DNA from: a virus
Reading direction: 5' to 3' (one strand)
DNA length: 24,295 nt
Virus record (IMG/VR): IMGVR_UViG_3300043786_000232
Location: 1-24,295 of that record
Shown: positions 2,688 to 9,117 of the stretch, piece by piece
Layout: the number at the start of each line of letters is the position of its first letter
Numbering within the stretch: position 1 is the stretch's first letter
The notes under the pieces: model-generated
Database searches by the model: none
Seen by the model: only the letters and a program-made list of their open reading frames with translations
What the model was told of the DNA's origin: nothing
Program-made: the position numbers and the translations under genes

Positions 2688-2751
2688 GTCTGCCTATTAC
2701 CTGCCCTGTGATCGTGCCTTGGCGGTACCTTAAATCGCGTTTAAACGGCAT
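2680..2751 (-). CDS. Candidate 23-residue ORF overlapping the replication gene end
   Basis: ATG at 2751 lies inside the last codons of the replication-type gene. It gives a basic peptide starting MPFKRDLRYRQG and stops 8 nt into the next candidate ORF. Spacing from the AGGTG upstream is too short for a good ribosome site. Translational coupling is possible; evidence is thin. Confidence 0.15.
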   Translation of the reverse strand: MPFKRDLRYRQGTITGQVIGRHG

Positions 2752-3676
2752 CACCTGTCCGTCCGGCATCCCGATGTAGCTGCATGATGGAGTCAATCAG
2801 CACTCCGGGTTGTGGGATTGGCAACCCTTCACCCTGATACAAGTTAAGCAACATTGCAATATCAGCATCTAGTTGTTCAATCGTTAATGGTTGCACAGAA
2901 CTTAACCTAAGTACTTCCTCCTTAGTTAAACCTTTAATCTTATGTTTAATAAAAACCTTAATATATTCCTCCTTAGTTGTTCTTTCCGTGTTCTGCTCAA
3001 CCTCATTAGGTTGCGCATAGGTTGCGTATGTATTGCCTACTTTTTCATCACTTGGTGCAACCTTATTGGGTTGCTTATGCTTGGCTTTCTTTGCGGCAAT
3101 CTCTGCTTTCATCTTAGCAACAGTTACGGTGTCCCCTGACTTTGGCATGGTGTATTCCTTTGGTGGTTGGGTTATAGGTTTAACAACTCCTTTAATCATC
3201 TCTTGGATGCGTCTTAGTCCTTCAGGATCGGGTGTCATATCGTTCATCTGCTCCTCCTTCATGTAGGGTGGTCTGGTGTCTTCAATGCGGCTGGTGACTG
3301 CAATGGCTGTCTCTGTGTCGATGGTCGGATCAAAGACAACCCGCATGGTGTCTGGCCTGATCCCTCGGTAGTGCCGGCTTACAACCTCAACATACCCGGC
3401 TTCCTTGAGCTTCTTTAGCTGCTTACTGATGGCCTGCCGGCTGACTCCAGCATCCTGAGATAAGCGCAGCTGGCTTACCCAGGTAACGCCTGCCCGGTTG
3501 CAGTAGCTGCAGACCAGGGCTAAGATCCGGAACATCCCGTCAGTCAGGCGCTTGTCCTGCAATGCGCGTATTGGCATCACAGCAACCTTGCGCTGGTCTG
3601 GCGTGGGATCCTTTTCCTTGACTCTAGGCTTCTTCGGTAACTTGAACTCAATCACATTGCCAGGCTGTGGAATCAC
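2741..3676 (-). CDS. Winged-helix replication-initiator-type protein
   Basis: This 311-residue protein has a basic N-terminus (PKKPRVKEK), then a winged helix at about 35-117. A conserved opening (LTDGMFRILALVCSYCNRAG) is followed by the recognition-helix region (SQDAGVSRQAISKQLKKLKEAGYVE) and a wing ending MRVVFDP. The remainder is charged, low in order and rich in K/Q/P. The layout resembles phage O-type or plasmid initiators, with DNA binding at one end and helicase-loader contact at the other, but a MarR-like regulator is an alternative. GTG 3676 overlaps the upstream stop (GTGA). The C-terminal half of the gene contains iteron-like repeats and an AT-rich tract. No separate helicase or loader is visible. 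Confidence 0.65.
   Translation of the reverse strand: MIPQPGNVIEFKLPKKPRVKEKDPTPDQRKVAVMPIRALQDKRLTDGMFRILALVCSYCNRAGVTWVSQLRLSQDAGVSRQAISKQLKKLKEAGYVEVVSRHYRGIRPDTMRVVFDPTIDTETAIAVTSRIEDTRPPYMKEEQMNDMTPDPEGLRRIQEMIKGVVKPITQPPKEYTMPKSGDTVTVAKMKAEIAAKKAKHKQPNKVAPSDEKVGNTYATYAQPNEVEQNTERTTKEEYIKVFIKHKIKGLTKEEVLRLSSVQPLTIEQLDADIAMLLNLYQGEGLPIPQPGVLIDSIMQLHRDAGRTGDAV
2889..3078. other. Candidate replication origin inside the initiator-type gene
   Basis: Plus strand: AGGTTGCGCAT (3008-3018) is followed with no gap by AGGTTGCGTAT (3019-3029), and GGGTTGCTTAT recurs at 3068-3078. Opposite copies give dyads CAACCT-cattAGGTTG (2998-3013) and GCAACC...GGTTGC (3058-3074). Another GGTTGC is at 2889. Next to them, about 2905-2978 is very AT-rich. 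Repeats plus an AT-rich tract within an initiator gene match the lambda O/ori plan. Part of the repetition follows from repeated QPN-[K/E]-V codons in the protein, so function is inferred. Confidence 0.45.
2915..2978. repeat. 13-bp direct repeat TTCCTCCTTAGTT, two copies
   Basis: Identical copies at 2915-2927 and 2966-2978 are 51 bp (17 codons) apart in the AT-rich part of the initiator-type gene. Read on the minus strand they encode the same TKEE motif twice, and each contains AAGGAGG, a full Shine-Dalgarno-like string inside the coding region. No start codon at good spacing follows either one. Confidence 0.6.
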
Positions 3677-5869: not shown

Positions 5870-6520
5870 ATGAGCAAATATGTAGCCTACTTCCGAGTTT
5901 CCACCGAGCGCCAAGGTCAGTCTGGCCTCGGCCTTGAAGCCCAGCAGGCAGCCGTCAAAACCTACGCTGATGGCATCATCCACAGTTTCACCGAGATCGA
6001 ATCAGGCAAGCACGACGACCGGCCACAGCTGGCCGCTGCCATCGCTATGTGCAAAGCCACAGGCGCAGCTCTGCTGATTGCTAAGATCGACCGTCTGTCG
6101 CGCCAGGCAGCCTTCCTGCTGACCCTGCGTGACTCTGGTGTCCAGATCGTGGCAGCCGACATGCCGCACGCCGGCACGTTAGAGTTTGGCATCCGCGCAG
6201 TGGTTGCCCAGCATGAGCGTGAAGAGATCAGCCGCCGTACCAAGGCAGCGCTGCAGGCAGCCAAAGCCCGCGGCGTTAAGCTCGGCAGCCCAAACCCAGC
6301 AGCTGGATCCGCAGCCGGTATCGCTAGCATTCAAGCAAGCGCAGATCAATTTGCCCAGCGCGTTCAGCCCATCATCGCCGACATCATCGCCAAAACCGGA
6401 TCGACAAGCCTGCGTTCAATCGCAGCTGCACTGACAGCTCGCGGCGTGCAGACAGCTCGCGGCGGTACCAAGTGGGGTGCCAGCCAAGTTGCCAACCTGA
6501 TGCAGCGAGGTGCAGCATGA
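5870..6520 (+). CDS. Small serine recombinase (resolvase/invertase/integrase class)
   Basis: This 216-residue protein has an N-terminal catalytic domain (about 3-140). The nucleophile is Ser11 in YFRVSTERQG with Arg9, and the conserved KIDRLSR (72-78) supplies D74, R75 and R78. The long E-helix (HEREEISRRTKAALQAAKARG) precedes GSPNP. A short C-terminal HTH (LRSIAAALTARGV...WGASQVANLMQR) reads DNA. It is much shorter than the large serine integrases. A good AGGAG precedes ATG 5870. It could integrate the phage, resolve dimers or invert a segment; no crossover site is obvious here. It is first in the rightward operon and faces the RHH gene. Confidence 0.9.
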   Translation: MSKYVAYFRVSTERQGQSGLGLEAQQAAVKTYADGIIHSFTEIESGKHDDRPQLAAAIAMCKATGAALLIAKIDRLSRQAAFLLTLRDSGVQIVAADMPHAGTLEFGIRAVVAQHEREEISRRTKAALQAAKARGVKLGSPNPAAGSAAGIASIQASADQFAQRVQPIIADIIAKTGSTSLRSIAAALTARGVQTARGGTKWGASQVANLMQRGAA

Positions 6521-6597
6521 GCGACGACTTTTTCCTGGGAGCCATCACAGCCATGATCATCATGGTCGTTATCTTAGTCGGCGGAGGTGTCATATGA
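6517..6597 (+). CDS. 26-residue membrane micropeptide
   Basis: ATG 6517 overlaps the recombinase stop as ATGA. The frame ends with a TGA overlapping the next gene's ATG, again as ATGA. The product is an acidic start (MSDDFF) and one hydrophobic helix (about 5-22, LGAITAMIIMVVILV) ending GGGVI. Perfect coupling at both ends and membrane-like composition support a real gene below usual annotation length. No family recognised. Alternatively it is only a translational bridge carrying ribosomes to the next gene, whose GGAGGT lies within it. Confidence 0.6.
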   Translation: MSDDFFLGAITAMIIMVVILVGGGVI

Positions 6598-6896
6598 TGA
6601 CCGGTCAGATGCTGCGCGACGCGCAGCTGGCGTTCTTTGAAATGCGAGACTCCGATTTTCTGGAGCACTGCAGGACTATAGCGGCAGACATTGCCAAGCA
6701 GCACGGCCAGGTGTCGATCAATGAAGTACGCAAGGCCATCAACATACCTGAAGGCGTGCATCCATCTGTGCTCGGCGCTGTTTTTAAGTCAAAAAAATTC
6801 ATAGCTATCGGTTACACCGAGGCTACCCACAAGGCCGCACATGCTAGGGTCGTGCGCGTCTACAAACTCAAGGAGGAAACATGTCAGGAAAGCTAA
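6594..6896 (+). CDS. Small hypothetical protein, possible winged helix
   Basis: This 100-residue protein starts at ATG 6594 with GGAGGT seven bases upstream; longer upstream reading is not needed. Helices (MLRDAQLAFFEMRDSDFLEHCRTIAADIAKQ) are followed by HGQVSINEVRKAINIPEGVHPSVLGAVFKSKKFIAIGYT and a basic strand HARVVRVYKL. Helix, turn, then strand with basic ends suggests a winged-helix DNA-binding fold. It sits between the recombinase and the exonuclease and overlaps the latter by 16 nt. I do not recognise a named family. Confidence 0.75.
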   Translation: MMTGQMLRDAQLAFFEMRDSDFLEHCRTIAADIAKQHGQVSINEVRKAINIPEGVHPSVLGAVFKSKKFIAIGYTEATHKAAHARVVRVYKLKEETCQES

Positions 6897-7834
6897 CCCC
6901 AAACACAATGATGTCAGCCAGCAGGCTTCCTGCGCTGTTGGGATTGTCTAAATACCAGAGCCCCAATGATGAGCTGCAGACCACCATCAATGCGATTACC
7001 GGCATTGAATCTGACTTTGAGCAGAATGAATCGATGGCCTGGGGCGACCGGCTTGAGGAAATTATCCTGCGCGAAACAGCAAAGCGACTCCAGCTCACAG
7101 ACCTGAAGACTGAGTTTAACAAAGCGTTCTATCATGAAACACTGCCGCTGGCCTGCAGCCTGGATGGCTGTGCTGATGGTGCCGGGCAGATCGTCCGCAC
7201 CGACCCAGACGCTGGGATTTATGTGATCGGTAAAGACTCCATCGAGTTAGCCGGGGTTGGCGTGCTTGAGGCCAAGCTCACCGCAGTGCAGCCCGAAGAA
7301 ATCCCGGCACTCTACCGTGGTCCTGTGCAGCTGCAGGCACAGATGGACATCATGCAGGCCAAGTGGGGATGCGTAGCCGTGCTGTACCAGGGAACCACGC
7401 TGCGGATCTTCCTGTTTGAGCCGCACGCACAGACGCTGGCTACCATCAAGGCAGCCGTGCTTGAGTTTCAGCACAAGGTAGAAAAATTCAGAGCAACCGG
7501 CGAGATAGATTTCTACAACCCGGCGAGCAGCAAAGACGCTGACCGCATGTATCCGACCGCAGACGAAAGCCGCACGGCACACTTGCCGGAGCGAGCGCAG
7601 CAGCTGGTCGGGCAGATCGTGGCCGCCAAGGCAGACATCGAGCAGGCAGAACAAAAGCGCACCGAAGCAGAGACAGAGTTGAAAGCAATGATGGGCGAGG
7701 CATCGAAAGCCAAGGTCGGCAACTATGAAATCCGCTGGCCAATGCGTTTCTACAAAGCAGCGCCCCAGCGCGTCGTGCCGGCCAAGGATGCCTACAGCAT
7801 TCGTCAATCCACACTATCAATCAAGGAGCTTTGA
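6881..7834 (+). CDS. YqaJ/lambda-exonuclease-family recombination nuclease
   Basis: This 317-residue protein would be the 5'-3' exonuclease partner of the annealing protein downstream. It opens with SASRLPALLGLSKYQSP, typical of YqaJ proteins binding DNA ends. The core shows WGDRLEEII (E59/E60), the acidic LACSLDG strand (D95) and the catalytic E-x-K in GVLEAKLTA (E130, K132), followed by PVQLQAQMDIMQAKWG. The C-terminal third is a charged helical region (AKADIEQAEQKRTEAETELKAMMG), probably a coiled coil for assembly or RecT contact. AAGGAGG four bases before ATG 6881 fixes the start. Confidence 0.9.
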   Translation: MSGKLTPNTMMSASRLPALLGLSKYQSPNDELQTTINAITGIESDFEQNESMAWGDRLEEIILRETAKRLQLTDLKTEFNKAFYHETLPLACSLDGCADGAGQIVRTDPDAGIYVIGKDSIELAGVGVLEAKLTAVQPEEIPALYRGPVQLQAQMDIMQAKWGCVAVLYQGTTLRIFLFEPHAQTLATIKAAVLEFQHKVEKFRATGEIDFYNPASSKDADRMYPTADESRTAHLPERAQQLVGQIVAAKADIEQAEQKRTEAETELKAMMGEASKAKVGNYEIRWPMRFYKAAPQRVVPAKDAYSIRQSTLSIKEL

Positions 7835-7835
7835 G

Positions 7836-8021
7836 ATGGACAACCGAGAGCTGACAGACATTGAGCAAGCGCACGCTGCAGCCTGCGTCGCGCTGCTTAA
7901 TGCGGTGCCGACAATGACGGAAGAGCAAGCAAACGAAGTGGTGGACAGCCTGTCTGTCTTATTGCTTCAGACATTAAATACTTATGTACCAGGGGATGAT
8001 GATGCAATTGACTACAACTAA
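7836..8021 (+). CDS. Small acidic protein between exonuclease and RecT genes
   Basis: This 61-residue protein starts at ATG 7836 after AAGGAG with 7-nt spacing. It is helical and acidic (DIEQAHAAACVALLNAVPTMTEEQANEVVDSLSVLLLQTLN) with an acidic end (GDDDAIDYN). It overlaps the RecT gene by about 20 nt. Its position suggests an accessory to the recombination pair, but no family is recognised. An upstream extension of this frame into the exonuclease gene lacks support. Confidence 0.7.
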   Translation: MDNRELTDIEQAHAAACVALLNAVPTMTEEQANEVVDSLSVLLLQTLNTYVPGDDDAIDYN

Positions 8022-9117
8022 GGGATTCGCTCCCGCCACTATGGGCGAGGCGATGGAGTTTTCAAAGATGCTGGCCGACTCCAGCATGGTGCCACGCGCT
8101 TACCAGGGAAAGCCACAGGACATCATGGTCTGTGTGCAATGGGGCTATGAGCTCGGCCTGGCACCCATGCAGGCGTTACAAAATATAGCGGTGATAAATG
8201 GGAAGCCAAGCGTCTACGGCGACGCTATGGCCGCTCTGGTGCAGGCTAGCCCGGTCTGCGATGGTATCGACGAAACCTTTGAGGGAGTCGAGGGGACGGG
8301 TGAGTTTGCCGCTGTCTGCATAGCCAGGCGCAAAGGCCGGCAGCCGGTGACAATCAAGTTTAGCGTTAACGATGCCAAGCGTGCTGGTCTTTGGAATAAG
8401 CAGGGACCGTGGACGCAGTACCCAAAGCGGATGTTGCAAATGCGAGCCCGCGGCTTCGCCCTGCGCGATGCCTTCCCTGATGTCTTGAAGGGATTGATCA
8501 GCGCCGAGGAGGCCGCCGACTACCCTGATGATGCCAAACCCAGGCCAATCAAAGATGTCACGCCCATCCCAGCAAACCCGCTGGATATGATTGCGCCGCC
8601 AGCACCGCCGCCAGTAGAGTTCGCGCCTATCATTGAAGAGGTGCGCGTAATCATGGAACAGGAGCCGACTGAAGAACTGATTACTATCGGCAAAGAATTC
8701 GTTGATGCGTTGATGGCATCCGAGCCGGTCAAATTAGATTTGCAGAATGTTCCTGCAGAATCTGCAGAACCTGCTGCAGAACCCACTGTGGTAGGCGACT
8801 GGCCTCTGATGGTGCCAGACATGAAGGCCGAGCGAGTCGAGGGTGATCCTGTGCCGGCCTTACTCAATAGCACCTGGTCCGACATTGATGCCTGGTGCGA
8901 TGCGTATGAGGAGCTCGCAGACAAAACCGCACGCGCTGGTAAGCGTCCAGCCAGGGAGCGCATGACAATCCTGAAAGAGCTGCGCAATGCTAACCAATCG
9001 GTCATCGAGAAGATCGACCCGGTCAAGCGGCTGCGGCACTCTGCTTCCTACGCCAAACGTCTTGCAGCGCTGGGCGCATCAATGGGTGGATCAGCAGAAA
9101 AAAACCCCGGCACTTAG
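8002..9117 (+). CDS. recT: RecT-type single-strand annealing protein
   Basis: The protein has 371 residues from this start. The N-terminal half shows features I associate with phage RecT proteins: MLADSSMVPRAYQGKP, QWGYELGLAPMQALQNIAVINGKPSVYGDA and WTQYPKRMLQMRARGFALRDAFPD. It would coat exonuclease-made single strands and anneal them. After about residue 175 comes a Pro/Glu-rich linker and a separate C-terminal helical domain (WSDIDAWCDAYEELADKTARAG...KRLAALGASMG), so the protein is longer than RecT proper. ATGs at 7984, 7996, 7999 and 8002 are in frame. I chose 8002 for the AGGGG at 7991-7995. Its stop codon lies inside the opposing terminator. Confidence 0.85.
   Translation: MQLTTTKGFAPATMGEAMEFSKMLADSSMVPRAYQGKPQDIMVCVQWGYELGLAPMQALQNIAVINGKPSVYGDAMAALVQASPVCDGIDETFEGVEGTGEFAAVCIARRKGRQPVTIKFSVNDAKRAGLWNKQGPWTQYPKRMLQMRARGFALRDAFPDVLKGLISAEEAADYPDDAKPRPIKDVTPIPANPLDMIAPPAPPPVEFAPIIEEVRVIMEQEPTEELITIGKEFVDALMASEPVKLDLQNVPAESAEPAAEPTVVGDWPLMVPDMKAERVEGDPVPALLNSTWSDIDAWCDAYEELADKTARAGKRPARERMTILKELRNANQSVIEKIDPVKRLRHSASYAKRLAALGASMGGSAEKNPGT
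8741..8781 (+). repeat. TGCAGAA microrepeat, four copies, in recT linker
   Basis: Copies start at 8741, 8754, 8763 and 8775. They are read in more than one codon phase, encoding part of the linker (LQNVPAESAEPAAEP). The cluster marks the flexible hinge between the annealing domain and the C-terminal domain. Slippage or domain joining could have produced it. Confidence 0.5.

Follow-up and report, generated by a model that had tools for sequence, protein, structure and literature searches.

The 24,295-bp stretch of DNA analysed here (the window, taken at its full length), an uncultivated-virus record, carries a cluster of short repeats and an adjoining A+T-rich tract inside the gene of an O-like replication initiator, and, judging from the window and its homologues, we put the probability that this element is the phage replication origin, located within the gene of its own initiator, at about 85%. 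A lambda-like iteron origin in an initiator gene had been proposed by a previous sequence-only reading of the window and is still the best reading, with synonymous sites constrained across both the iterons and the A+T tract. The features concerned are the following:

2741..3676, minus strand: gene of the O-like replication initiator, starting with GTG and encoding 311 aa (PHROG 678, Pfam HTH_36, 178 distinct homologous genes)
3398..3439, minus strand: codons of the predicted recognition helix, residues 80-93 (R80, K85) (AlphaFold2 helix, pLDDT >90; residue 80 has the top mutual information)
2990..3079, minus strand: codons 200-229, predicted disordered linker with the iterons (AlphaFold2 pLDDT <50)
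3057..3074: first iteron dyad, with perfect 6-bp arms, GCAACC-ttattg-GGTTGC (L004 keeps these arms in a different reading frame, GCAACACAAGAGGTTGC)
2997..3014: second iteron dyad, imperfect (5/6 arm bases), TCAACC-tcatta-GGTTGC
3020..3025, plus strand: a further half-site in direct orientation, GGTTGC, at a distance of 11 bp from that at 3009 (among the homologues, direct half-sites are most often spaced by 11-12 bp)
2905..2978: candidate unwinding element, a tract with 73% A+T (A+T content and synonymous constraint in homologues)
2889..2894, plus strand: distal half-site GGTTGC beyond the A+T tract

The best PHROG match of the window initiator is 678, 'replication initiation O-like' (E 5e-10), which is also matched by lambda O (E 1.7e-35), and the statement of the sequence-only reading that the gene is unrelated to that of lambda is thus wrong. 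A direct hhalign profile alignment of the window initiator family with lambda O gave nothing significant, so that the link between the two runs through the shared PHROG 678 only. In Pfam, the protein matches the HTH_36 winged-helix domain (E 2e-7). A PDB sequence search with the initiator profile returned generic winged-helix regulators only, the best of them being of the ArsR type (E 9e-4), and in a PDB fold search the initiator structures 4pql, 4pt7 and 5kbj ranked second to fourth at E 3.6e-3 or worse, with MarR proteins scoring alike. The C-terminal domain is made up of predicted helices (residues 230-306). Between L010 and L024, and also family-wide, several unlike C-terminal ends are joined to a similar N domain and iterons; this pattern suggests that C-terminal modules may have been exchanged downstream of the origin in this initiator family.

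In the window, AGGTTGCGCAT occurs exactly at 3008-3018 and AGGTTGCGTAT at 3019-3029, and a third 11-bp copy with 2 mismatches, GGGTTGCTTAT, is present at 3068-3078. This bears out the exact positions given earlier for tandem 11-bp iterons and a third near-copy and confirms that the repeats are real and located where they were first placed. The 11-bp unit itself did not hold, as the tandem copies are better described as half-sites of 18-bp hyphenated dyads, GCAACC-N6-GGTTGC, with an extra half-site past the A+T tract. The 6-bp half-sites are GGTTGC at 2889, 3009, 3020 and 3069, GCAACC at 3057 and TCAACC at 2997, and the iteron sites fall at codons ~200-227, between the DNA-binding and the C-terminal domains. 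A terminator-like match at 3057-3074 was rejected as being the iteron dyad itself.

A scan of the whole window for 11-mers with up to 2 mismatches revealed no excess over shuffles (14 versus 13.6), so that single loose copies are uninformative and clustering alone is informative. Five GCAACC/GGTTGC sites lie within 200 nt at 2889-3074, and elsewhere in the 24 kb there are never more than 2 per 200 nt. As a null model, 2000 synonymous-codon shuffles of the initiator gene were generated with protein and codon usage held fixed. The count of 8 GCAACC in the gene gave P < 0.0005 for this hexamer, which was picked post hoc; the unselected statistics gave P = 0.010 for the most frequent 6-mer in 200 nt and P = 0.013 for the best 11-bp tandem, and the perfect dyad by itself was not significant against the same codon shuffles (P = 0.30). 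The 73% A+T of positions 2905-2978 is reached by only 0.36% of the 74-nt windows of the contig.

It might be argued that the repetition is a by-product of QPN-K/E-V peptide repeats in a low-complexity linker and has no function at the DNA level, a caveat that had been raised from the start. Several copies do share the QPN(K/E)V frame, and the linker, being predicted to be disordered, would be free to repeat. However, the codon frame differs between the two tandem copies (TAC GCA ACC, encoding Y-A-T, versus GCG CAA CCT, encoding A-Q-P), so that repeated amino acids do not explain them and the caveat is justified only in part. In L004/L005 (~70% identical protein), the peptide KQPNKVA has become YATQEVA, and the DNA retains GCAAC-N-GGTTGC in another frame. 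The codon-shuffle null is exceeded, synonymous constraint is seen despite high amino-acid divergence, and the repeats covary with helix residue 80 (see below); a peptide by-product is already contradicted by the tests run and appears extremely improbable.

Homologues of the initiator were collected from IMG/VR and collapsed at 98% nucleotide identity, which left 178 distinct genes. In 66 disjoint homologue pairs, pooled synonymous differences amount to 0.060 at codons 204-251, which comprise the iterons and the A+T tract, versus 0.182 elsewhere (Fisher P 5e-54), the profile remaining at ~0.18 over most of the gene and dropping to 0.04-0.07 at these codons. Amino-acid differences between paired homologues are high there (0.17 in the linker and 0.24 in the A+T region), and the low synonymous rate is therefore not simply a result of recent common ancestry. 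The comparison of synonymous sites that the sequence-only reading had suggested thus came out in its favour, the iteron DNA being conserved beyond the need of the protein.

Iterons are found at the same position of the gene in ~150 homologues, with dyads mostly of 16-18 bp (118 of 18 bp, 115 of 16 bp and 26 of 17 bp) plus extra half-sites. Over the 90 nt past the last half-site, the homologues have a median A+T content of 0.69, compared with 0.43 for the initial 600 nt of the gene. Of the 159 iteron-bearing homologues, 60 possess a distal NCAAC half-site; it agrees with the iteron type in 55/55 R80(K/R85) and Q80 genes and disagrees in three K80 genes and one R80+N85 gene. In-gene iterons are missing from the MEP301-type relatives and from L108/L109: L007 (MEP301), L043, L044, L047, L108 and L109 possess shorter related initiators without a cluster of this kind, and their origin must therefore be elsewhere.

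Free change of the repeats among homologues, which had been named as evidence against an origin, is not observed; instead, the changes keep step with the recognition helix. When the repeat type was first taken, blind to the protein, as the most repeated 6-mer of each linker, it sorted among the homologues with two residues of this helix. By a counting rule devised after the pattern was seen, GCAAC accompanies Arg80 plus Lys/Arg85 in 36 of 38 genes and ACAAC accompanies Gln80 in 71 of 71, while Lys80 occurs with TCAAC in 11 genes and with ACAAC (GACAAC) in 26, never with GCAAC. Genes with Arg80 plus Asn85 have GGACAC in 14 of 24 cases, and the remainder have mostly degenerate GGACA/GTGTCC arms, as judged by eye. 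In a sequence-weighted scan of 138 N-terminal columns, residue 80 ranked first with a mutual information (MI) of 1.45 of 1.47 bits of entropy; its MI/Hjoint was 0.73, that of the runner-up, residue 84, 0.33. Correlated evolution was assessed by a Pagel-type likelihood on a single helix-masked tree, using a chi-square approximation. Dependent evolution was favoured over independent evolution for R80/GCAAC (P 4e-6) and for N85/GGACAC (P 2e-8), and a weaker dependence was seen for K versus Q with T versus A (P 0.004). A sign test on well-supported branches offered 3-4 contrasts only, with all differing ones in the predicted direction, and was not significant. L200 and L188 share 94% of their N-domain residues apart from the helix; the former combines Q80/K85 with ACAACC and the latter R80/N85 with GGACAC.

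Since the repeat type tracks the recognition helix, the initiator is likely to be the protein that binds the iterons. The covariation further makes it fairly probable that residue 80 sets the first base of NCAAC (Arg for G, Gln for A, Lys for T or A) and that the following two are set by residue 85 (CA with Lys/Arg, AC with Asn), which would amount to a readable code; pairing of arginine with guanine and of glutamine with adenine is textbook chemistry. L146, L203 and L252 deviate from the core repeat sequence and, together with the two repeat types of Lys80, indicate that the code has at least one further determinant. L146 has a helix identical to that of L135/L140 (QAPKQQVARAMKQLR), yet its arms are mostly GACATC and those of the others GACAAC; its wing differs slightly from theirs (V/I and V/T changes), suggesting that the wing changes may act as an additional specificity determinant. 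In L059, L063, L018 and L030, with the helix VTKQAISKQ, asymmetric dyads mix GTCAACC and GACAACC arms. In R80+N85 genes such as L082, L171 and L178, a GGACAC half-site is accompanied by a single half-site of the other type, CATAGGCAACC, possibly as a relic or as the site of a second binder.

The genes for the large and the small terminase are located just downstream of the initiator gene (114-1667 and 1686-2111, respectively), and the repeats could be taken for a pac or cos site, used in packaging or cleavage and recognised by the small terminase encoded nearby. We consider this highly improbable, as the repeat sequence tracks the recognition helix of the initiator, and contigs with large terminases 87-100% identical to that of the window differ in iteron type.

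Covariation speaks for binding alone and not for replication, and the winged-helix fold of the initiator resembles MarR/ArsR regulators. The protein might thus repress its own gene by binding to an internal operator, with the origin being located elsewhere. However, the sites lie ~600 nt into the coding region, there is no second site cluster upstream of the initiator gene, and the constrained A+T tract directly adjoins the sites. In addition, an exact DnaA box (TTATCCACA) is present in 62 of the 178 genes versus 4.1 expected from codon shuffles, in which the maximum was 11, and 63 of the 65 copies share one orientation, being typically located between iteron groups. An origin is favoured over an operator because of the O-like family assignment, the constrained A+T block, the distal half-site and these DnaA boxes, and an operator strikes us as unlikely. 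The window and its closest relatives have no DnaA box. In L010, L013, L059, L100, L124, L253 and ~56 more, the DnaA box of the linker is TGTGGATAA, coded VDN or VDK, and L253 has two of them in tandem.

What the sequences themselves show is the presence of the sites, their conservation as DNA and their covariation with the recognition helix; binding, melting, helicase loading and origin activity we infer along the following lines. With the recognition helix of its winged-helix domain, the initiator would bind the dyads and half-sites at 2997-3074, presumably as dimers on the dyads, with residue 80 reading the first base of NCAAC and residue 85 influencing the next two. The bound array would then melt the A+T tract (2905-2978), which adjoins it on one side and has the distal half-site (2889) on the other, and the C-terminal domain may recruit the host helicase. 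Profile searches of the near-complete relatives identified no DnaB, lambda-P (PF06992) or DnaC/IstB, of which divergent forms may escape such a search, and use of the host helicase is therefore likely. In about one third of the relatives, host DnaA probably assists through the DnaA box between the iteron groups. GC skew, which the sequence-only reading had put forward as a check, neither supports nor refutes the placement of the origin: in the window and its near-complete relatives it is weak, has its extremes away from the initiator gene and is confounded by gene direction.

In lambda (and in lambdoid and Stx phages), iterons are located in the middle of gene O, with an A+T tract on their transcriptionally downstream side (PMC7466680). 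The element described here similarly combines an O-like initiator with iterons in mid-gene between the DNA-binding and C-terminal domains, each iteron being an inverted repeat of ~18-19 bp and the A+T tract following the iterons. In contrast to the four 18-bp iterons annotated in lambda, the window has two dyads, direct half-sites 11-12 bp apart and one further half-site past the A+T tract. Also unlike lambda, DnaA boxes occur in many relatives, and no P-type loader (PF06992) was found in the window or in 20 near-complete relatives; for this reason, the element would work like ori-lambda and yet is not a lambdoid O/P module.

A second group of in-gene origins is that of RepA_N plasmids. The boxes of pSK41 RepA lie centrally in the rep gene, and origin DNA codes for the linker of the protein (PMC5703833); the N-domain and origin of such plasmids are exchangeable as a module, as for pPR9 (PMC5703833). 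In initiators of this group (pSK41, pTZ2162), an N-terminal winged helix binds these boxes, and the window initiator gene resembles theirs in the central location of its putative origin boxes; at the level of the fold, the window protein matches the initiator structures 4pql, 4pt7 and 5kbj at E 3.6e-3 at best and the MarR proteins about as well. The RepA_N domain (PF06970) is not among the Pfam matches of the window initiator up to E = 1, and this initiator is thus not a RepA_N protein; hosts and C-terminal domain are different as well.

For the RepA of the PLE satellite and for ICP1 Odn, the DNA-binding domain of the initiator covaries with the iterons, as shown by origin swaps (PMC8263062, PMC7145576). 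That comparison covered two types of module and an intergenic origin, whereas in the family of the window the origin would lie within the gene and single residues are mapped to bases across ~150 genes. In the iteron-related domain of geminivirus Rep, iteron bases correspond to specificity-determining residues, as derived from covariation (as described in PMC10611410); unlike the window initiator, Rep is a rolling-circle initiator, and its iterons are located in the common region, outside the Rep gene. We found no single-residue code for an initiator with the origin inside its own gene in the open-licence papers searched. The specificity code appears to be the new part, the in-gene kind of origin being already known from lambda O and pSK41 RepA.

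Initiators are usually paired with their origins through genetic work on single replicons. In this large phage family initiator and origin would share one gene, and each genome thus provides one paired measurement of a protein and its DNA target, from which a testable rule relating residues to bases arises. The matching of initiator and repeats would be readable from sequence alone in ~150 relatives; if the code is true, sequence would suffice to predict new origins and compatibility groups, which might be swapped by one or two residue changes. The analysis also places a probable origin in phages without a cultivated close relative and suggests that a coding sequence can carry an additional message at the level of DNA where it encodes a disordered linker.

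The large terminase of the window is 75% identical to its counterpart in Methylophilales phage MEP301, and relatives of this terminase are encoded on 598 candidate IMG/VR stretches; genome contigs scanned for relatives yielded none. Downstream of the initiator gene, ~330 bp (2408-2740) are without a clear minus-strand gene and include a terminator-like hairpin at 2430-2444. A plus-strand block at 5870-9117, opposite in direction to the remaining window, codes for a serine recombinase, a RecE-like exonuclease and a RecT-like annealing protein.
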